Positions 6,902 to 61,963 of a DNA stretch of 64,000 nucleotides are shown here, in pieces. The DNA is taken from the NCBI RefSeq assembly GCF_040939125.1, contig NZ_CP162495.1, positions 1,612,001-1,676,000 of the forward strand, in the 5' to 3' direction. The DNA comes from Clostridium sp. BJN0013 (lineage in GTDB: Bacteria; Bacillota; Clostridia; Clostridiales; Clostridiaceae). The translations under genes and the position numbers were made by a program. The notes under the pieces were generated by a model. The model searched no databases, was not told the DNA's origin, and saw nothing but the letters and a program-made list of their open reading frames with translations. Position 1 is the stretch's first letter, and each line of letters opens with the position of its first letter.

Positions 6902-6973
6902 AAAAAAACACTCCTTCATATAAATAATTGTAAATTTATCATCTAAAATTATTGCCTTGAAAGAGTGTTTTTT
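6902..6973 (-). terminator. Long hairpin terminator after the split host gene
   Basis: AAAAAACACTC near 6903 pairs with GAGTGTTTTTT near 6963, with further pairing inside (AATAAT/ATTATT). On the minus strand it lies about 45 bases after the host gene stop at 7017. The T-run on both strands suggests bidirectional use. Confidence 0.6.
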
Positions 6974-7016
6974 ATTCAGTTTATACAAGATTTTTGTTTT
7001 TTCAAGTATCTTGCAT

Positions 7017-7515
7017 TTAGGTAAGACTTTTATTGAATATATTTGATAGGCCAAGGGCAGATATTTTATTTTTAATATCTGTTGTATTTATGGTATAGAG
7101 TCCTGTTTTTTTCATTCTTTCAAAATATTCTGAGCCGGCAAAGGTATATCTATTTTTTCGACCTTCTTTAGTTCGTATTTTATAATTTGCGTAGTTTATT
7201 ATATCACCGATAACTGTATCCTTTGGAAGGATTAAAGTAGGCATTTCAAGTGCACATCTTACAGCATTGTGTCCTGCCAGAGATCCTGTACAAATAGCTT
7301 CTGTATGACCCACAAATAATCCACTTTTTTCTCCAGCACAAAATAGATTTTCTACATTGTTTACTTTTAAATCATCAGAAACCGGTGCTACAGATAAATA
7401 TCTTATAGAATTTCCTTTACCACCGGAATAAGGATCTATAAATTTGGCATTTTCTAAACCAGGTATTTTCCTTAGTTTATCTAAAGGATAATAAGAGGTC
7501 ATAAGTTTTACATGT
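7017..7515 (-). pseudogene. FAD-dependent oxidoreductase, C-terminal fragment of a doubly interrupted gene
   Basis: The frame runs from the attachment site near 7515 to a TAA at 7017. It contains VENLFCAGEKSGLFVGHTE and ICTGSLAGHNAVR, the C-terminal flavin-binding motif of GidA/TrmFO-like FAD oxidoreductases, followed by a helical tail. It continues in frame from the fragment at 57743-58285: the junction reads LDTGH then VKLMTSYYPLDK. The host protein would be an FAD-dependent oxidoreductase of unknown substrate. The sequence shows no decay, so excision of element A could restore this junction. An internal ATG at 7502 exists but has no ribosome site. Confidence 0.75.
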
Positions 7516-9216
7516 GCTAGGTGAACAAAACTGCAACTTAGTATTGGAAAAATCTATATCGGGTAATTCGATTTCTTCAAAATCATCTTTATCAGAGCCT
7601 ATAAATTTTATAAATACTTTTCCATTGTTGTTTTTGTCTCCGTACCAGTATATAACATCTATCAATGTATTGATAATTTGTTTTTGTTTGTCACGTGAGA
7701 GCCTGTCTATTACTGCACAGTCACATAATATATTTTCTATTAGATCTAAGTTGATTTTTTCTATTTTATCTTTTTTACTTTCACTGTCAAGAATAGTTAA
7801 CTTCTTTTCAATTTCTATGCATTCATTTTTAATGGTTTTAATTTTATCAATCATTACATCTTCTATATCTTTACTCTTTGAAAGTATATTCAGTAGGTTA
7901 TCAATTTGATTTTTCTTTTCAATTAAAGTTTTATCCAATAGTGCTTTTTCATTTTTATTATCATCTTTTAATCTGGAATCATAATTTTCTTTCAACCTAG
8001 CCATAAATTGTTTTTGTTCATTGCCTAGTTTTTTTAAACTTAACAATACTAAACTTTCAAGCTCTGCAGCTTTAGCATTTTTATTATCGCAAAATTTCTT
8101 GTGAGATTTTCGTTTCAACGAGCACACATAATAAAAGAGTTTTTCTCCGGTAAGTTTAGAAACTCTTCCATGTTGTACTAACATATATTCTTTACACCGG
8201 CCACATTTTAATTTACCAGTTAATAAAGCATTATGGGTTTTACCTAATCTAGGAAAAGTATCTTTATTTTTATCAAATTGACTTTGAACTTTTAACCATA
8301 GTTCAGGTTCCAGTGCTCCTGTTATATTGCTCACAGAAGCAAATCGTTCACTTTCAGGATTTAGGGATTTAGTACGCTTGCCGTTTCTTATTACTTGTCT
8401 AGTTTTATTATATGTGAGTAGAGAATGAATATTATCTGCTTCACCATAAATATTCCATCCATTCGATTCCAAATATTCAATTACTGCTGCATTAGCCTTT
8501 ACATATATGGGATTCTGAAGTATGATTTTTAAAGTGGATTTTTCAAACAAAATATTATTTTTTGATTTTATTTGATTTTCAGTTATATACACTTCCAATT
8601 TATGAAGGCTACCAACTTCTAAATATTTTTCATATAGAAATTTAACGAAGTCCATTTCCTCCTTATTTATTTCAAGAATAGAAAATTCTCTTTCCAATCC
8701 AGATTTATCTCTGTATTTTTTTCTTTTAGAAGTAAACCCTAATGGTATTTTCCCTCCGGTCCATCTACCATTCTTAGCTAACTCAAGCATATTATCTCTT
8801 ACACGTTCTGCAATTGTTTCCCTTTCCAACTGGGCAAAAACACTAGCAATGTATATCATGGCCTTTCCCATTGGAGTGCTTGTGTCAAACTGCTCTTTTA
8901 TACTTATGAAGCTCACATTGTAATTTTGCAATAATTCTAAAGTAGCTGAAAAATCAGATACATTTCTACTGATACGATCTAACCTATAACATACTAAATA
9001 ATTTATTTTTTGAAGTTTTATATCTTGAATCAGTCTTTTGAATTGAGGCCTGTTTATTGTGCTGCCACTAAAGCCTTCATCTTCATAAATTAAAAAATCG
9101 ACATCTCCCTCTAAGTGATTCGCAATATATTGCTTACACATTTCTATTTGGTTCTCTACAGAATCTCCCTTGCCGGTAAATTTTGATTTTCTGCTGTATA
9201 TAGCTACCTTTAGCAT
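7477..9216 (-). CDS. Large serine recombinase, element A integrase
   Basis: About 579 residues from the ATG at 9216, which follows AAGGGGGATAAAAGT. The N-terminal catalytic domain starts VAIYSRKSKFTGKG with the nucleophile Ser in YSRKS, and includes YEDEGFSGSTINRP and YRLDRISRNVSDF. A recombinase domain follows, then a zinc ribbon (CGRCKEYM ... YVCSLKRK ... C) near residues 330-370, a long coiled coil, and a C-terminal tail. It should carry out att-site integration and excision. The last codons (after TCKTYDL) are read from host-gene DNA past the att core, so the C-terminus would differ after excision. It is related to the recombinase at 58266-59960. Confidence 0.93.
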   Translation of the reverse strand: MLKVAIYSRKSKFTGKGDSVENQIEMCKQYIANHLEGDVDFLIYEDEGFSGSTINRPQFKRLIQDIKLQKINYLVCYRLDRISRNVSDFSATLELLQNYNVSFISIKEQFDTSTPMGKAMIYIASVFAQLERETIAERVRDNMLELAKNGRWTGGKIPLGFTSKRKKYRDKSGLEREFSILEINKEEMDFVKFLYEKYLEVGSLHKLEVYITENQIKSKNNILFEKSTLKIILQNPIYVKANAAVIEYLESNGWNIYGEADNIHSLLTYNKTRQVIRNGKRTKSLNPESERFASVSNITGALEPELWLKVQSQFDKNKDTFPRLGKTHNALLTGKLKCGRCKEYMLVQHGRVSKLTGEKLFYYVCSLKRKSHKKFCDNKNAKAAELESLVLLSLKKLGNEQKQFMARLKENYDSRLKDDNKNEKALLDKTLIEKKNQIDNLLNILSKSKDIEDVMIDKIKTIKNECIEIEKKLTILDSESKKDKIEKINLDLIENILCDCAVIDRLSRDKQKQIINTLIDVIYWYGDKNNNGKVFIKFIGSDKDDFEEIELPDIDFSNTKLQFCSPSTCKTYDLLLSFR

Positions 9217-9353
9217 TACTTTTATCCCCCTTTGTAGCATTTATTTTATTATATCATTTTTTACAAACTTAAAATTATTTAGTGTTAAGTAACAATATTG
9301 GTAAATCTAACATAACATAAGATGGATATGTTTTTAATACAGGAGTTGTTTGA

Positions 9354-9615: not shown

Positions 9616-9720
9616 TGGTATAATATATTTAAAAGAAGCCGTTGCGGTTTTGAATAGTTAAGTTAAATTGTTTCTAGTTTAAAATGCACTTATGGGAATG
9701 GGTGCATTTTTACTTTTTTG
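9616..9720 (+). ncRNA. Candidate antisense antitoxin RNA, unit A
   Basis: An extended -10 promoter TGGTATAAT at 9616-9624 would start a short RNA near 9631. It contains GCCGTTGCGGTT and ends at a hairpin (AAAATGCAC with GTGCATTTT, 9681-9710) followed by TACTTTTTT. The RNA runs convergent to, and overlaps the 3' end of, the peptide gene at 9710-9889. An almost identical arrangement lies at 60024-60115. This is the layout of a type I toxin-antitoxin unit. Confidence 0.6.
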
Positions 9721-9889
9721 AGTTTTTATCTTCAGCAGTTATAGAAATTTCATTTTCAGTCAATTTTCCAATTGAAGATTTACCTTTGATTATTAATCTA
9801 TCTTTTAAATATGTTCCTACAATCACCATAGCTGTTATGCATGATGATGTAATACATACTGATATTACTATAATCACAATATCACTCAT
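9710..9889 (-). CDS. Small membrane peptide, candidate type I toxin A
   Basis: 59 residues: MSDIVIIVISVCITSSC is a hydrophobic N-terminal segment that continues through TAMVIVG, and the polar tail is YLKDRLIIKGKSS, KLTENEISITAEDKNSKK. The ATG follows GAGGAGGTGG. A minus-strand promoter (TGGTATAAT reversed, 9992-10000) gives a leader of about 95 bases carrying TTGCGGTT. The paralog at 60112-60291 has the same length, an almost identical tail and a diverged membrane segment. Toxicity is inferred from gene layout only; it could also be a membrane signal peptide. Confidence 0.65.
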   Translation of the reverse strand: MSDIVIIVISVCITSSCITAMVIVGTYLKDRLIIKGKSSIGKLTENEISITAEDKNSKK

Positions 9890-10037: not shown

Positions 10038-11354
10038 TTACTCCATTTTAAACTTTATCAAAAATTTAGTTTTTTCTGGAATACTTTCTACAGATATAGT
10101 TCCATTATTTTTTTCAACCAATTGTTTGGCAATATACAGTCCGAATCCATGAAGATCATTTTGTTTAACTTTTGTAGAAAAACCTCTATTGAAAATTTTT
10201 TCTATTATATTTTCAGGGATAACATCTCCATTATCGGCTATCTCAATACAAAAGTTTCTGTCTTCCTTAAAAGTGGTAATGGATATTTCCTTATCCCCCA
10301 CATCTGATTTAGTGAATGCTTCAAATGCATTGTCTATAAGATTACTCATAATACTTATCAATTCGTCTTCTCTAATTTTTATTGAACTGAAAGGTTCATC
10401 AATTATAATTTTAAAATCAACATTATTTTTTACTGCATAGTTGTTTTTTATGGATAACATACCATCTATGTAATCATTTCCTGTATTCAAATATCTAAAA
10501 GATGAATGTAATGTACCTGAAATTTTTCGTACATAACTATCTATCTTCTCTACGGTATCAGGCTTGTTTAATAAACACAGTCCTTGTATAATATTTATAT
10601 GGTTGGCAAAATCATGTTTTTCTTGCCTTATGATACTTATTATTTCCTCCATATTTTTAATTTGCTGTTTTTGAATTTTATAATTAATATTTATATTTAC
10701 AGCCAGCTGTTTTTCTTTTAAATTTTTGAATTTTGATATTAGAAATATAAAATAAATAATAAAAATAATAATATTATAGGTTTGAATACTCTTCACATTA
10801 AAAATGCTAAAATTAATGCTATATATAAAGAGAGTAAATATGCCTAACTCAATTATTAAGCTAGCAAAAATAGATCCTTCTTTTTCAAATAAATCAAGTT
10901 CAATAAAATATGAGTTAAATTTAAAAATTATTGATATAATAAGTATTTGCAACACTTTGGAAAGTACTAAAAGAATGTTAAAATATTTATAATTCAAAAA
11001 AATTTGATTTAAATCTATGTTAAATATAAACATTTCAATGATTTCAACAAAAATTTCTGTACATATAAGTGTTGTAAAAAATAAAGAAAATATAACTATA
11101 GAATCAAAAATTTTTATTTTTATAATGAAGGTCAGTAATAAAATATCAACTATTACAAGAAATAGTGTATGATAAACTCTTGATATATAGAATGTACTCC
11201 AATAGGTTATAAAAACATATAGTATAAAAAATAACAATGTTTTAATTTTATTCTGTATTACAAATCTTTTGTCATCATATAATGCTTCGAAAATTCCTAA
11301 AAGAAGTGAAGCTTCTATAATATCTATTATAATTTCACTTATACTACTCTCCAT
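10038..11354 (-). CDS. AgrC-like sensor histidine kinase
   Basis: A 438-residue protein. Residues 1-205 form six or so membrane segments, residues 235-438 the kinase. The phosphoacceptor box is EKHDFANHINIIQGL, as in the HPK10/AgrC group, and the ATP lid shows NLIDNAFEAF (N box), DNGDVIP and GFGLYIAKQLVEKNNG (G2 box). AgrC kinases bind a cyclic peptide outside the cell and phosphorylate AgrA. It lies 105 bases downstream of the AgrD-like gene at 11459-11602 on the same strand. No agrA-like response regulator is in the window, so it would have to act on a host regulator. Ribosome site AAAAGGAG is clear. Confidence 0.88.
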   Translation of the reverse strand: MESSISEIIIDIIEASLLLGIFEALYDDKRFVIQNKIKTLLFFILYVFITYWSTFYISRVYHTLFLVIVDILLLTFIIKIKIFDSIVIFSLFFTTLICTEIFVEIIEMFIFNIDLNQIFLNYKYFNILLVLSKVLQILIISIIFKFNSYFIELDLFEKEGSIFASLIIELGIFTLFIYSINFSIFNVKSIQTYNIIIFIIYFIFLISKFKNLKEKQLAVNININYKIQKQQIKNMEEIISIIRQEKHDFANHINIIQGLCLLNKPDTVEKIDSYVRKISGTLHSSFRYLNTGNDYIDGMLSIKNNYAVKNNVDFKIIIDEPFSSIKIREDELISIMSNLIDNAFEAFTKSDVGDKEISITTFKEDRNFCIEIADNGDVIPENIIEKIFNRGFSTKVKQNDLHGFGLYIAKQLVEKNNGTISVESIPEKTKFLIKFKME

Positions 11355-11458
11355 GTTGTTCTCCTTTTATTTCTGGAGGTTTTTACAAAAGTTATATTTT
11401 GAAATTAGTATTTTCATAAAAATTTTTAATCACACTTTTATAAAACCCCCTTAATTTA

Positions 11459-11602
11459 TTATTTCAAGAGTTCATCAGGACATTTGGGCTGATAAACGCC
11501 ACCCAAACATGTTGGAGTTATGACTATTGCTGCTAAAAGCAAAGATAAAGAACCTACCATTTTCATACTTTTCTTTAATAATTCCTGTTTTAAAAACTTC
11601 AT
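11459..11602 (-). CDS. AgrD-like cyclic autoinducer peptide precursor
   Basis: 47 residues, too short for most gene callers. It has an amphipathic N-terminal leader (MKFLKQELLKKSMKMVGSL), a core TCLGGV, and a C-terminal recognition tail YQPKCPDELLK. The layout matches AgrD precursors, for example the Listeria form in which a Cys-led pentapeptide precedes YEPKSP. A thiolactone ring over Cys-Leu-Gly-Gly-Val is therefore predicted. The ribosome site AAGGAGG is strong. It is directly upstream of the AgrC-like kinase. The processing enzyme AgrB is missing from the window. Confidence 0.82.
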   Translation of the reverse strand: MKFLKQELLKKSMKMVGSLSLLLAAIVITPTCLGGVYQPKCPDELLK

Positions 11603-12096
11603 ATTCCATATACCTCCTTAAACGTTTTAATATATAAATTCTACAAGATATTCAATTTTCCTGCTATATTTTACAAAGAAATAAAATTTAACAGAATTAA
11701 GTTTTATTTCTCGAAAGTTTGATAAATCTTTATAGAAACTTGAGTATAAAAGAATACATGCTGTCTCTGAATTTAGATAATTAAGATAGAAAAATTGTGG
11801 AATAACCTGTAAAAAAGTATATAATTCCCTGCAAAATGCCGTGAAATTCAATTTATGAATAATACAGCATTTCAAAGAGTATTTTGTGCTTAGTAGTTGT
11901 GACGACAAATAAAAATTTTACATATTAAACGAAATAAATTGTTCTTCATTTTCCTTATAGTTTAATAATATATCTTTTGTATAAATATTATGTCCTAAAT
12001 AATTAGATTTTTTATCACTTTTAGGATGATTTTAGAAATATATGTAGAAATACCTAATTGTAAAAATCTATTAAAGGGATAAGGGGGAACTATAAT
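11603..12096. other. Intergenic region with no supported gene
   Basis: A minus-strand frame of 93 codons (11627-11908) exists but lacks a ribosome site and is rich in Phe, Tyr, Ser and Cys as random A+T-rich sequence would be. I see no agrB. The region should hold the agrD promoter (a TATATT-type -10 near 11630 on the minus strand) and that of the nuclease gene. Confidence 0.4.
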
Positions 12097-16974: not shown

Positions 16975-18495
16975 ATGTATAAGGAATTTGAAAGTATAGA
17001 AAACTTAGAAAAGATAATGCCAGATTCAAATGAATTTGTAGCAGAAAGAGTTAAAAAGTTAAATAAGCTTTATGAATTGGGAGTTAATCCATATCCTTAT
17101 AGCTACAAAAATATAACTCATACTAAGGATATTTTTGATAACTTTGAAAATATAAAAGAAGAACAAGAATTCACATTAGCAGGAAGAGTTATGCTAATAA
17201 GAAGGATGGGAAATGCCACATTTGCCAATATTGTAGATGAAAAAGGAAATATACAAATATTCTTAAGTAAAAAGCTAATAGGTGCTAAAAGTTATAAAAT
17301 CTTAAAATTAATTGATGTAGGAGATATTATTGGAGTTGATGGAGCTGTATTTAAGACACAGACAGGTGAAATCACTATTAGAGTAAATCAGTTTGAATTA
17401 TTGTCAAAGTCCATTAGAACACTTCCAGAAAAATATCACGGTATACAAGATGCTGACTTAAGGCAAAGACATCGTTCATTAGATATGATAATGAATGAGG
17501 GTGTTAAAGAACGATTTATTAAACGTTCAAAAGCCATAACAGCTATCAGGGAATATTTAAACAATTTAAACTTTATTGAGGCAGATACTCCTATTCTGGA
17601 TACTAAATACGGTGGAGGAGAAGCAAAGCCATTTACAACATTTGTTAACGCATTGGATTGTAATGTATATATGAATGTTTCTCCAGAATTATATTTAAAA
17701 AGACTCATAGTTGGAGGAATTGAAAGAGTTTATACCTTTGCAAGAGCTTTTAGAAATGAGGGAATTGATAGAACACATTATCCAGAATTTAGCTTGTTTG
17801 AATGTTATATGTCTTATGCTGACTATAATGACATGATGAAACTTATGGAGAATATATATGAATATGTATTTAATAAGGTTAATGGAACAACAAAGATTCA
17901 GTATGGAGACGTAGAAATTGATTTTAAAGCTCCGTGGAAGAGAGCGAAGATGTGTGACCTTGTAAAAAAGGATACAGGAATTGATGTTGAGACACTTACC
18001 ATGGAAGAAATTATTAAAAGTATTAAGGACAATGAGCTCTTAATAGAAAGTCAAAATGAGGGGTTAGTTATTGATGAATGTTCAAAGGGAGAATTAATAA
18101 TTAATTTGTTTGAAGTGTATTCTGAAAAGAAACTAATTCAACCAACCTTTGTTATAGACTTTCCTGAAGAATCTTCTCCGTTATGTAAGATTCATAGACA
18201 TAACTCGGATTTAATTGAAAGGTTTGAACCTTATGCTTATGGTGTTGAGCTTGGGAACGCTTATTCAGAACTTAATGACCCATTGAAGCAAAGAATACTT
18301 TTGCATGAACAAGCGTCAAAACTAAGAGCTGGGCTTGAAACAGCAAGTCCAATGGATGAGGAATTCGCTGTTGCTATCGATACTGCAATGCCACCAACTG
18401 GAGGATTAGGAATAGGTATTGATAGAATGATAATGTTTCTTACTGGTTCTTATACCATAAAAGATATTATAGCATTTCCTCTAATTAAAAGATAA
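16975..18495 (+). CDS. lysS: Lysyl-tRNA synthetase, class II
   Basis: 506 residues, the usual LysRS length. The N-terminal anticodon-binding OB fold covers about residues 60-160 (LAGRVMLIRRMGNATFANI). The class II core shows motif 2 as FRNEGIDRTHYPEFSLFE and motif 3 as GGLGIGIDRMIMFLTG. It should charge tRNA-Lys. Compared with the housekeeping form, motif 2 has THYPEFSLFECY in place of the usual HNPEFTM and the block before it reads VYTFARAFRNEG instead of VFEINRNFRNEG, so it looks like a diverged second copy. It is alone behind the T-box and has its own terminator, in element A cargo. Confidence 0.93.
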   Translation: MYKEFESIENLEKIMPDSNEFVAERVKKLNKLYELGVNPYPYSYKNITHTKDIFDNFENIKEEQEFTLAGRVMLIRRMGNATFANIVDEKGNIQIFLSKKLIGAKSYKILKLIDVGDIIGVDGAVFKTQTGEITIRVNQFELLSKSIRTLPEKYHGIQDADLRQRHRSLDMIMNEGVKERFIKRSKAITAIREYLNNLNFIEADTPILDTKYGGGEAKPFTTFVNALDCNVYMNVSPELYLKRLIVGGIERVYTFARAFRNEGIDRTHYPEFSLFECYMSYADYNDMMKLMENIYEYVFNKVNGTTKIQYGDVEIDFKAPWKRAKMCDLVKKDTGIDVETLTMEEIIKSIKDNELLIESQNEGLVIDECSKGELIINLFEVYSEKKLIQPTFVIDFPEESSPLCKIHRHNSDLIERFEPYAYGVELGNAYSELNDPLKQRILLHEQASKLRAGLETASPMDEEFAVAIDTAMPPTGGLGIGIDRMIMFLTGSYTIKDIIAFPLIKR

Positions 18496-57476: not shown

Positions 57477-57746
57477 CTATAAAAAATAATCAATAGACAT
57501 ATTAAAAATTTGACATATCTTTTTCAAATTGACACGATTAGGTTTTGATGTTCCTATTTCATATTTACATAAAGAAGAATAGCCTATAGAACAAACTTTA
57601 GCAAATTCACGTTGGGTATATCCTTTGATCATTCTTAATTTATAAATTTTTTGTGCAATTGTTTTTTCAGGAAGTGTATAATATATTGTAGAAGTAGAGT
57701 TTTCAATATCTTTAAATACATTTCTATATGTTGCAGTTTTGTTCAT
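57477..57746 (-). CDS. XRE family regulator at the attachment site
   Basis: 89 residues with the HTH at about residues 35-89 (IYKLRMIKGYTQREFAKVCSIG, YSSLCKYEIGTSKPN) and a ~30-residue N-terminal extension. Its ATG lies five bases from the CATGT core and its first codons overlap the stop of the host-gene middle fragment (GTATGA). In the integrated state it can therefore be read from host transcription, which would change after excision. It may control element A excision. Confidence 0.8.
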   Translation of the reverse strand: MNKTATYRNVFKDIENSTSTIYYTLPEKTIAQKIYKLRMIKGYTQREFAKVCSIGYSSLCKYEIGTSKPNRVNLKKICQIFNMSIDYFL

Positions 57747-58285
57747 ACTGCATGTCCAGTGTCAAGAAGTACTATATTTTCTGCAAATTCTTTTAAGGCA
57801 TACTGTTGGCAAACTTTATTTTTTAGTTTATCCAAATTTATATCTTCTTTTGGAACTTTAAGAACAACCGCACCATCTTCTTCTAATTTATTTACAAGAT
57901 CTTTAGATAAAGTTTCCTTAGCAAGTTTACAAGAACCACTGAAAGCTCCATAATTTCCATCAGTCCTTTCTCCATGAAAATCTTCAACTCCTGCACAGTT
58001 GCTTATGCTTATTCTTGGACCAAAAGTTGGACACCTTAATATACACATAGAGCATCCATTTCCGTATTTCATACAATTTCCCATAGGACCTGTAGAACCT
58101 GTGGTTTCAATAAATACATCACCTTCTTCATACTCTCCATTAGAGGTATAAATACCTTTGATTTTATTTCCTTTCATTTCAACATCTACTACCCGTGATA
58201 TTAAGTTTAGTTTTATTCCTTTATCTAGAATGTATTTCCTCACAATTGGTTCGATTTTATTTACATCATACAACCAGGCGTGAGC
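57743..58285 (-). pseudogene. FAD-dependent oxidoreductase, middle fragment
   Basis: Frame from the element B junction to a TGA created at the element A junction. It includes HAWLYDVNKIEPIVRKYILD, the flavoprotein segment EGDVFIETTGSTGPMG and a cysteine cluster YGNGCSMCILRCPTFG. It precedes, in the host order, the C-terminal part at 7017-7515. The N-terminal part with the FAD-binding GxGxxG must be beyond 64000. No stop codons interrupt the fragment, so it is conserved in frame. Confidence 0.75.
57751..57755. other. attR of element A (candidate core)
   Basis: CATGT is shared with 7511-7515. Joining the outer flanks at this core gives a continuous host frame (LDTGH-VKLMTS). The nearby TAC at 57746-57748 is an alternative core. 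Confidence 0.55.
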
Positions 58286-59960
58286 ATGATGTATTGTATT
58301 GCGACATATTTAGCGAACTATAGGACGAAGCGTGTGTTTTTTTTTTACTTCCCCATAACTGAATATCAACATCACCGGTATTGCCATTCCAGTAAACTTT
58401 ATCGATTATATTCTCAAGTATAAGTCTTTTCTTAGAAGTGTCTTTTATCATATCAAAAGATGAATTAAATTCATGTAATGATTTTTCTATTATTTCAAAG
58501 TTTAATTTCTTCTGTATGTTTTCTTGTTTAGTATCTTTAGACTTCTCTAGTTTTAGATTTAATTTTTTTATTTCATTTCCTAAGGATTCAATTTTATCTT
58601 TTATAAATTCAGATGCAATAGAATTATTTGCATTTGTATGAGATAGCTGTTCCAATAATGTATTTATTTGATCGCTTTTATCTTTAATTTCTTTAGTTAT
58701 TGTTTCAGTAAAATTATTTTCAATAGACGCTGCAGCTTCGTTCTTGGCAACTTGTAATTCTTTTAGTATCTTGGTTGTATTTAGTTGTTTAATATTTTCG
58801 ATAATGGCCTTTTCAAGCTCTGGACCTTTTACATTAGGATTATTGCATCTATTTTTGGCTGAATGAGCTTTCATTGTACACATATAATAATAGATTCTTT
58901 CACTTCCATCTTTTTTAGGTCTGCCATAGCTTACGCGCATAGGAGCACCACACAAAGCACATTTTAAAACCCCGGATAATAAAGATTTTTTAGAAGTTCC
59001 TTGTCTTGGATTGGCTTTCTTTTTATTTTTATTTAAACGAAATTGAACCTCTAGCCAGGTACTGCTATCTATAACTCCTTCGTGTTTTCCTACTGCAGCA
59101 ATCCATTCAGTCTTTTTTTTAAGAACATACTTTGAATTACGTTTATTATAGGTCATAATACCATTACCATTAGGAGTGCCGCATGTAATTATGCCCGAAT
59201 CTGATAAATATTTAAAAACTCCATCATCTGACTTAACATACACAGGATTTCTTAAAATATCATTTATAGACATAGATGCAAAATCTCCTCCGTTTTTACC
59301 CCTTATATTATTAGATAATAAGTATTTAAGAACTAAGGATATAGAGCCAAATTCTATATATTTATTGTAAATTAATTTAACTTTTTTAAGTTCTTCTTTT
59401 ACAGGGGAAAGTTTATACATAGATTTTTCTTTCATTTCAGAGTTGTAATAAAGTATTTTTTCAGAGTTAAATCCTAGAGGAGTTTGCCCCCCAAGCCATC
59501 TTCCTGTTTTGGCAAGTTGAATCATATTATCTCTAATTCTCTCTGCTATGGTCTCCCTTTCTAGTTGGGCAAATACAGAGGCTATATATACCATAGCTTT
59601 ACCCATAGGAGTAGAAGTGTCGAATTGCTCTTTTATACTTACAAAAGATATGTTATGTTGTTGTAGCAATTCTAATGTAGTTGAGAAGTCAGCGACATTT
59701 CTGCTTATTCTATCAAGTCTGTAACACATTAGGACGTCAAATTTTTTCTTTTTTACGTCTTTCAATAGTTCTTGAAACTTAGGCCTGTTTGTATTTCCAC
59801 CTGAAAAGCCCTCATCCTCATATATTATAAAATTGTCATCTTTTAAATTTAAATTTTTTTCTCCATATTCTTTGCAGAGCTGAATCTGATTTTCAATAGA
59901 TTCACCTTTGCCTGTGAATAATGATTTTCTACTATATATGGCTGCTTTTATGATAATCAC
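58266..59960 (-). CDS. Large serine recombinase, element B integrase
   Basis: 564 residues, GTG start behind AGGGAT. The catalytic domain starts AAIYSRKSLFTGKGESIENQ with Ser in YSRKS, then YEDEGFSGGNTNRP and CYRLDRISRNVADFSTTLELL. A zinc ribbon (CALCGAPMR ... YMCTMKAH ... C) and a coiled coil follow. It is clearly related to the element A enzyme but diverged in the C-terminal half, as expected for enzymes with different att sites. Its last codons (CSRLVV) run into host-gene DNA. Confidence 0.93.
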   Translation of the reverse strand: MIIIKAAIYSRKSLFTGKGESIENQIQLCKEYGEKNLNLKDDNFIIYEDEGFSGGNTNRPKFQELLKDVKKKKFDVLMCYRLDRISRNVADFSTTLELLQQHNISFVSIKEQFDTSTPMGKAMVYIASVFAQLERETIAERIRDNMIQLAKTGRWLGGQTPLGFNSEKILYYNSEMKEKSMYKLSPVKEELKKVKLIYNKYIEFGSISLVLKYLLSNNIRGKNGGDFASMSINDILRNPVYVKSDDGVFKYLSDSGIITCGTPNGNGIMTYNKRNSKYVLKKKTEWIAAVGKHEGVIDSSTWLEVQFRLNKNKKKANPRQGTSKKSLLSGVLKCALCGAPMRVSYGRPKKDGSERIYYYMCTMKAHSAKNRCNNPNVKGPELEKAIIENIKQLNTTKILKELQVAKNEAAASIENNFTETITKEIKDKSDQINTLLEQLSHTNANNSIASEFIKDKIESLGNEIKKLNLKLEKSKDTKQENIQKKLNFEIIEKSLHEFNSSFDMIKDTSKKRLILENIIDKVYWNGNTGDVDIQLWGSKKKTHASSYSSLNMSQYNTSCSRLVV

Positions 59961-60115: not shown

Positions 60116-60291
60116 TTTTTTGAGTTTTTATCTTCAGCAGTTATAGAAATTTCATTTTCAGTTAACTTATGAACCGAAGACTTACCTTTAATTTCAAGTC
60201 TATCTTTTAAATATGTTCCTACAATCACCATAGCTGTTAAGCCAAGTGATGTAGCACATATAAATCCTAATGCAATGATAGTTTCACTCAA
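60112..60291 (-). CDS. Small membrane peptide, candidate type I toxin B
   Basis: 59 residues from the TTG behind GAGGAGGTGG (the GTG at 60300 lies inside that site). The membrane segment is LSETIIALGFICATSLGLTA; the tail YLKDRLEIKGKSS and LTENEISITAEDKNSKN nearly equals that of copy A. The leader carries GTCGTTGCGGTT, as in A. Role as toxin is inferred from layout. Confidence 0.65.
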   Translation of the reverse strand: MSETIIALGFICATSLGLTAMVIVGTYLKDRLEIKGKSSVHKLTENEISITAEDKNSKN

Positions 60292-60892: not shown

Positions 60893-61963
60893 TTAATTAA
60901 TATATCTATTTAATACTTCAATCAATCTATCTGAATATGAGTATAAATCATCTAAAGAATTTAATTCGTATTTTGTATGAGTTTTATCTTCATTGGGTAA
61001 TGTCAGTATTTTTTTTACGTTAAGAGATAACCTGCAGATCCACTTTCTTGTATTACCATCAAATAAGACTCCAAAATATGATTCAGTATCTTTATATGTA
61101 ATATGTGATAAATCGATAGTATTTCTAAGAATTGATTTTATTATTGCGTATGCTTCAAGTTCTTCTACTGTAGTGAGAACTTTATACTTATTTTCCACGA
61201 TATCATCTGTAACAGCAATTTCTTCTTTTGATTTATCATTAACTTCTGGATCTGTTCCTTTTAGTGTTTCTCTAAATTTATCGCTCATAGTTTCATTAAT
61301 AAATTGATTGAGTGATTTTTTTACTATAGGGATAAATTTTTCTATAATGGAAGATGTTCTTCTACCTTCGTATATTTCTCCTAATATATAATTAGCAAAA
61401 TCCTCAGATGGTTTCTCTATTTGTTTTTTTAGAAAATCTTTTATAAGGCTTGTATATTTCAACTCTGATGCAGAATTAACGATGGCATCTATATCCAGTT
61501 CATCTTTAGAAAAGCGTTTTAAATATTCAATAGAACTGTCTTTTAAATCAAATAGATTAATTTCAAAGAATGGTTTTTCATCCATTTTATTTGGTTCATC
61601 TAAATCTGCGTAAAATCTATATTTTATACCATTAGTTAAAATTCTGAATTTAGCTGGTGACGTGGTATAATATCTAAAAAGTTGAGAGCCATGTTTATCA
61701 AGATTATCATTGCAGTCTTTTGCCTCCACAAGAATTATAGGAGCCCCATTTATAAGGATTGCATAATCAACCTTTTCACCTTTTTTTACACCATAATCAG
61801 CATCAAATTCAGGACAAAATTCTAGTGGATTAAAAACATCATAACCTAGCATTTGAAAAAATGGTAATATTAATGACTGCTTGGTTGCCTCCTCTGTTTT
61901 AATCTGAGTTACTAACATTTCAGCTCTATCTGATAATGCCTGTATTTTTTCTTTGATTTCCAT
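60893..61963 (-). CDS. HsdR N-terminal-like nuclease domain protein
   Basis: 356 residues. Residues 10-150 are an HSDR_N domain: KTEEATKQSLILPFFQMLGYDVFNP, VDYAILINGAPIILVEAKDCND (the D...ExK nuclease motif), FRILTNGIKYRFYADLD. The helicase parts of HsdR are absent. The second half is helical with a small C-terminal strand domain (YFGVLFDGNTRKWICRLSL). Stand-alone proteins of this type are found in phages and defence regions. It lies inside a damaged repressor gene, so it was probably acquired after the element formed. Confidence 0.82.
   Translation of the reverse strand: MEIKEKIQALSDRAEMLVTQIKTEEATKQSLILPFFQMLGYDVFNPLEFCPEFDADYGVKKGEKVDYAILINGAPIILVEAKDCNDNLDKHGSQLFRYYTTSPAKFRILTNGIKYRFYADLDEPNKMDEKPFFEINLFDLKDSSIEYLKRFSKDELDIDAIVNSASELKYTSLIKDFLKKQIEKPSEDFANYILGEIYEGRRTSSIIEKFIPIVKKSLNQFINETMSDKFRETLKGTDPEVNDKSKEEIAVTDDIVENKYKVLTTVEELEAYAIIKSILRNTIDLSHITYKDTESYFGVLFDGNTRKWICRLSLNVKKILTLPNEDKTHTKYELNSLDDLYSYSDRLIEVLNRYIN

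Follow-up and report, generated by a model that had tools for sequence, protein, structure and literature searches.

Within a 64,000-nucleotide stretch of the Clostridium sp. BJN0013 genome (the window) lies a pair of minus-strand signalling genes, agrD and agrC (Table 1), and our check of its open reading frames bore out the preliminary description of a 47-residue AgrD-like precursor accompanied by an AgrC-like kinase, as both ORFs are found where they had been placed and the TIGR04223, SPOB_a and HATPase_c profiles all score above their cut-offs. AgrD passes the curated TIGR04223 cut-off (a Pfam search of the 47 residues gave no match) and carries a predicted ring, CLGGV, with a Cys for thiolactone closure, followed by a conserved proline-rich tail, YQPKCPDELLK; the ring length (Cys or Ser plus four residues) is adopted from the published family. 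The agrD ribosome site, AGGAGG, is located at 11613-11618. AgrC has the make-up of an AgrC receptor kinase, a multi-pass membrane sensor joined to a histidine kinase domain with agrD adjacent: hydrophobic stretches fall between residues 3 and 213, the sensor occupies about residues 1-215 and the kinase residues 216-438, with H247 as the putative phospho-acceptor. Its Pfam matches are SPOB_a (39.7 bits, cut-off 28.1) and HATPase_c (71 bits, cut-off 26.4), with HATPase_c_5 also above cut-off. Its sequence relation to the host AgrC that is paired with a LytTR regulator (28% identity over residues 31-435, E 3e-21) places it among the AgrC proteins, and its kinase half is 80% identical to that of the AgrC in the host's agrD-agrC-agrB (D-C-B) operon.

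Table 1. Features of the agrDC locus and of the prophage that carries it (window coordinates).
Feature	Position	Strand	Description and evidence
att core ACATG	7511..7515		integrase-side prophage end; junction against uninterrupted attP in L081
large serine integrase of the agrDC-carrying prophage	7477..9240	-	Resolvase, Recombinase, Zn_ribbon_recom
59-aa ORF between agrC and integrase	9710..9889	-	occurs with and without agr
agrC	10038..11354	-	438-aa membrane sensor kinase; uninterrupted; Pfam SPOB_a and HATPase_c; alignment
agrD	11459..11602	-	47-aa precursor; TIGR04223 39.6 bits against cut-off 19; alignment
sigma-H-type promoter GCAGGAAAA-N11-GTAGAATTT	11636..11664	-	directly upstream of agrD; exact match, 11-nt spacer
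att core ACATG	57751..57755		far prophage end; junction against uninterrupted attP in L081

Both genes are located inside a 50-kb prophage, recognised as such by its phage families, by the host gene that it splits and by the agreement of its att half-sites with the uninterrupted attP of a relative. The family scan found terminase, portal, major head and neck families; since no tail genes were recognised among the part of its ORFs that was scanned, the prophage may be defective, and three families of transposase genes also lie within it. The interrupted host gene is FAD/TrmFO-like, with pieces at 7017-7502 and 57743-58273. At locus L081 of the congener G004 the same integrase end is joined to the far prophage end of the window through an uninterrupted palindromic attP, and comparison with L081 sets the break points at 7511 and 57755 around a shared core. 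The agr pair begins 0.8 kb from the serine integrase gene, with only the 59-aa ORF (no match in Pfam, NCBIfam or PHROG) in between. We first thought this ORF to be part of the agr unit and then dropped the idea, as it has 12 matches in the host and, of the eight places examined, four lie beside a serine integrase and three occur with agrC; it is probably a phage gene outside the signalling unit. A similar small ORF of about 59 aa is also present at 60118-60291 of the window. Elsewhere inside the prophage, positions 16975-18495 hold a putative lysyl-tRNA-synthetase-like gene.

The clostridial system resembles agrBDCA of Staphylococcus aureus in its AgrD precursor, AgrB protease and AgrC sensor kinase, and in a putative specificity block covering agrD and the sensor part of AgrC. 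Unlike that system, the clostridial genes have no linked agrA or agrB, follow the order D-C-(B) and are preceded by a sigma-H-type promoter instead of an AgrA-driven one. The prophage locus is thus not a complete agrBDCA locus, and neither of the two genes that had been called missing from the window was found in it: two host AgrB types found no match in the window by tblastn at 1e-4, the host AgrB of the matching subfamily found none even at E 1, and the only LytTR matches in the host, at 561 and 3656 kb, both lie outside. A residual agrB was also considered and rejected, as tblastn found no match and blastn gave only short ones, the best being 18 bases at 46.9 kb, away from agrC.

The search of the host genome (4.10 Mb, one contig) that the preliminary description had suggested uncovered, apart from these LytTR genes, six AgrDs above cut-off and three AgrB matches (637-639 kb, 2251 kb and 819 kb). 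A single uninterrupted agrB of the matching subfamily resides in the D-C-B operon at 637-639 kb, whose AgrD ring is SSGGY as against CLGGV in the prophage; the agrB at 2251 kb has two in-frame stops, and that at 819 kb is uninterrupted, belongs to another subfamily and has its own agrD. The earlier idea that the prophage peptide matures through the host AgrB is plausible because an uninterrupted agrB of the same subfamily is on hand. The 819-821 kb region (L013 4701-6970) represents a second agr type, in which agrB-agrD follows three similar membrane proteins of ~157 aa. Including the one in the window, the host has five AgrCs of the close family, the others (at 694, 637, 2250 and 918 kb) being 71-82% identical to it. 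The 694-kb pair likewise lies upstream of a serine integrase. A transposase gene interrupts the 918-kb agrC (of the 921-kb locus), and at 2250 kb the homology to agrC reaches further 5' than the ORF does. A stop-containing AgrC fragment of 25-30 residues that stands by itself (host 2121088-2121177; L102 2595-2669) is probably the relic of another copy. A further relic, suspected at 2142 kb from a promoter match, turned out to be a hydrolase-like gene (labelled by eye).

The prophage pair belongs to a multi-copy agrDC family. The AgrD profile retrieved 27 AgrDs in ten of 13 genus genomes, and when agrB neighbours were assigned by position relative to PF04647 matches, 13 AgrDs had an uninterrupted agrB 1.4-1.5 kb away, one had a stop-bearing agrB and 13 had no agrB within the 3-kb limit. 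All six genomes with agrB-less pairs (G000, the host, and G003, G004, G006, G007 and G009) also hold an uninterrupted D-C-B operon, in line with maturation by AgrB in trans. Five of the 13 agrB-less pairs, from three genomes, lie directly upstream of a full-length serine integrase ORF (the window, host 694 kb, G004 3761 kb, G004 3814 kb and G003 3360 kb). A scan of genome contigs gave 16 loci; 13 of them (L032-L044) align with almost the full length of the query, at 50-73% identity. Every AgrC match in the phage and plasmid collections is below 60% identity and none covers 80% of the query, in collections from which records very near the window's genome are possibly absent; IMG/VR holds two loci on one contig, both arranged agrD-agrC-62-aa ORF-serine integrase, which look the same as G004 L081 and L082. 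At L082 (the 3814-kb copy), agrD and agrC are separated by a Spo0E-like fragment and a repeat of the agrD-upstream sequence (positions 6915-7430), an arrangement that would fit replacement of agrD by recombination.

The distribution of these copies bears on the possibility that a chromosomal agrDC cassette was picked up by phages, confers no benefit and is heading to decay. Several agr copies are indeed broken (the G003 3360-kb agrC has an early stop at residue 10, and the host 921-kb and G004 3453-kb agrDs have no ATG in register at position 1), the prophage holds transposase genes, and eight of the 13 agrB-less genus pairs are not next to a recognised serine integrase. Against such a passenger stand the same integrase-adjacent arrangement at five loci in three genomes, the promoter retained in the prophage copies and the purifying selection on the kinase (see below), and we regard it as rather unlikely.

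The promoter upstream of agrD matches the pattern RNAGGAWWW-N11-RNNGAATWW, the boxes RNAGGAWWW and RNNGAATWW being quoted for sigma-H in PMC8510167, with similar C. difficile SigH promoters in PMC7438776. The full pattern occurs once in the window, where 0.20 occurrences are expected (at least one in 19 of 100 shuffles). When the upstream sequences of 30 agrD genes, that of the window included, were scored, 22 reached 13/13, six 12/13, one 11 and one 10, and the spacer is 11 in 29 of the 30. By comparison, random 200-bp stretches of the window reached 13/13 in 9 of 2000 cases and at least 12 in 104 of 2000, and the upstreams of window ORFs of at least 100 aa did so in 1/63 and 7/63, respectively. 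Genome-wide, the host has 44 matches to the pattern versus 10 for the reversed control; these take in three of the five agrD copies of the close family (694, 921 and 1623 kb), the strict pattern being missed by the copies at 637 and 2250 kb, as well as a pair of sites in the agr locus at 819-821 kb and a single one roughly 60 bp upstream of spo0A (2525931-2526734). The host also has a sigH gene above cut-off. Conservation of the promoter among close paralogues is in part shared descent. Among the matches listed by a literature search, no paper links sigma-H to these agr genes.

For a comparison of ring, sensor and kinase, we used the same 30 loci, comprising 26 of the 27 genus AgrDs (that of G010 was left out) and L032, L039, L042 and L044. 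All except one give 47 residues in register, corresponding to 28 unique AgrDs. Ring positions 33-36 of these average 2.4 bits of entropy, compared with 1.24 for residues 1-14, 1.45 for residues 15-30 and 0.47 for the tail; several positions outside the ring (6, 7, 15, 18, 25 and 29), at 2.3-2.9 bits, vary as much as the ring does. Among 29 rings, 27 are distinct, and the host alone encodes CLGGV, CTLGY, SSGGY, CIGCG and CTFSG. Rings that start with Cys occur, in raw counts, at one of 15 loci with an uninterrupted agrB and at seven of 14 without agrB, plus the locus with the broken agrB, so lactone and thiolactone closure may differ by locus type.

The two halves of AgrC have evolved differently. 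The window's AgrC was compared with 27 other rows, and in seven comparisons chosen from these dN/dS (NG86) is 0.06-0.15 for the kinase half and 0.33-0.50 for the sensor half, and DNA identity to the related G004 prophage is 92.3% for the integrase, 94.5% for the kinase, 76.9% for the sensor and 73.6% for agrD. The four integrase-linked copies with an uninterrupted agrC form one kinase clade (97/93; the fifth copy, that of G003 with its early stop, was dropped before the trees were built), which the sensor data reject (p-AU 0.00048), as they do the grouping of the window with the 694-kb copy alone (p 0.043). The sensor tree groups host 694 kb, G004 2099 kb and L040 (99/94), with rings CTLGY, CTMGL and CFMGF, and the kinase data reject this group, which was picked after the tree had been seen (p-AU 0.00018), while the 694/2099 pair alone is not rejected by them (p 0.152). 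Conservation thus marks the kinase halves, whereas the sensor halves diverge and are swapped between copies. Statistically, ring and sensor are weakly coupled: ring identity shows no rank correlation with sensor identity (0.08, p 0.11) and one of 0.13 with kinase identity (p 0.011). Mantel tests on substitution scores gave r 0.162 (p 0.017) for ring and sensor and r 0.125 (p 0.043) for ring and kinase, with partial values of r 0.105 (p 0.049) for ring and sensor given the kinase and r 0.01 (p 0.41) for ring and kinase given the sensor, and a nearest-neighbour Wilcoxon test of ring and sensor gave p 0.11 over 19 differing rows.

Staphylococcal AIPs cross-inhibit, and a prophage peptide might in the same manner compete with or antagonise the host AIP at the chromosomal AgrCs, and the added AgrD load might titrate the host AgrB, so that host agr is muted. 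In addition to the staphylococcal precedent, such interference would fit the tail shared by host and prophage AgrDs and the single uninterrupted host AgrB of the matching subfamily. Yet a private agrC is kept beside agrD, which would be superfluous for pure jamming, and its conserved kinase half, with the low dN/dS given above, argues against a pure decoy; moreover, the prophage rings are unlike the SSGGY of the host D-C-B operon and unlike each other. We consider interference unlikely.

Where the signal of the prophage AgrC goes after the kinase is the next point. Output through a host AgrA, as envisaged in the preliminary description, is not favoured by the genome comparison: in the host, a receiver domain was found in just one LytTR protein, the regulator at 561 kb, which already adjoins an AgrC of its own, the distant one with 28% identity to the prophage AgrC. 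Matches to this regulator at E <= 1e-20 occur in six of 13 genus genomes and are missing from four of the ten genomes with this AgrD type (G001, G007, G009 and G012, all draft assemblies). That the prophage channel ends at this AgrA-like protein is suggested by its being the only such protein in the host, and we judge it improbable. A regulator shared by the AgrCs of this genome is likely, because the phospho-acceptor stretch (residues 228-275) of the window's AgrC is identical at 46, 43 and 42 of 48 positions to those of three other AgrCs of the same genome (43/48 for the AgrC of the D-C-B operon). The leading, unproven candidate for the target of the prophage AgrC is Spo0A, for three reasons: according to the review PMC8102284, clostridial orphan kinases signal into the sporulation network and to Spo0A; the phospho-acceptor stretch is shared; and Spo0E-like genes are neighbours of agr copies. 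Among the 14 Spo0E-like matches above cut-off in the host, two precede agrD copies, by 138 and 164 bp, and one follows the uninterrupted agrB at a distance of 1.7 kb.

AgrB-less agrDC pairs are already known from chromosomes of this clade. PMC8748961 describes, in C. autoethanogenum and relatives, an agrD2-agrC2 pair ('System 2') that lacks both agrB and agrA, and proposes that AgrB1 processes its peptide in trans. As reported there, double deletion of agrD1 and agrD2 altered ethanol, acetate and CO2, single agrD deletions had no clear phenotype, and complementation with agrD2 failed to rescue the double mutant. The prophage pair resembles System 2 in its agrD-agrC composition, in a five-residue ring, in the chromosomal AgrB1 proposed for processing there and in the spo0E-like gene that follows the D-C-B operon. 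It differs in lying inside an integrase-bounded prophage, whereas agrD2-agrC2 is described as genomic operons in a main text without the words prophage or phage, and in having integrase-linked relatives with other rings. The Clostridioides difficile phage phiCDHM1 likewise has a phage-borne agr locus (agr3) without agrA, upstream of an integrase gene (PMC3901668); this phage, described as carrying agrD, agrB and agrC, encodes its own agrB and an AgrD of 45 aa, and the contrast that the preliminary description drew with it holds. Among the matches listed by a literature search, with most subscription journals outside it, no title or abstract opening showed an agrB-less prophage agr pair. What is new here is that five integrase-linked agrB-less copies, in three genomes, have differing rings, together with the sigma-H-type promoter at agrD and the contrast between conserved kinase halves and divergent, exchanged sensor halves.

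The sequences show which genes are present, where they lie in the prophage, the AgrB of the host, the match to the promoter, the pattern of selection and the conflict between sensor and kinase. On this footing we propose that the prophage carries a sender-receiver unit minus the maturation enzyme. The conserved promoter suggests that sigma-H RNA polymerase would transcribe agrD and agrC at the transition to stationary phase. The host's chromosomal AgrB, which is of the matching subfamily and presumably binds AgrD at its conserved tail, would then cut the precursor, cyclise it to the CLGGV thiolactone and export it. The prophage's own AgrC, with a sensor half presumably tuned to the CLGGV ring, would read the peptide, and its kinase half would signal to a host response regulator common to the chromosomal AgrCs, likeliest Spo0A or a regulator of the same network, which is the weakest step. 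The stationary-phase and sporulation control of the host would thereby gain a density channel specific to the lysogen, which swapping agrD and the sensor half would re-specify. From these sequence comparisons we give an even chance to such a private, lysogen-borne channel, in which the host AgrB matures the peptide and the signal passes to a shared regulator of the host, perhaps Spo0A.

A bolder view, possible in our estimation while leaning towards doubtful, is that agrD and the sensor half act as 'address cards' of temperate phages in this Clostridium group, exchangeable on a conserved kinase half, borrowing the host AgrB and plugging into the sporulation or stationary-phase regulator, such that each lysogen population would hear only its own kind and a phage census would steer host development or prophage fate. 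If the proposed channel exists, one maturation enzyme would serve several private channels of peptide signalling, viral ones among them, and by swapping a short DNA block phages could change which cells a bacterium hears. The convergence of a multi-channel peptide system on one regulator would become testable, and there would be a concrete route for prophage influence on sporulation and fermentation in industrial clostridia.

Finally, two prophages seem to sit in tandem within the one FAD/TrmFO-like gene, because a second serine integrase (58266-59960) starts at the end of the gene's middle piece (57743-58273); inspection by eye of the ORFs in the following 16 kb did not reveal the N-terminal piece. 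In this second prophage, a type I restriction HSDR_N-like gene (window 60893-61963) occupies the position that agrDC has in the first, so the region upstream of the integrase module may be a site for variable cargo.
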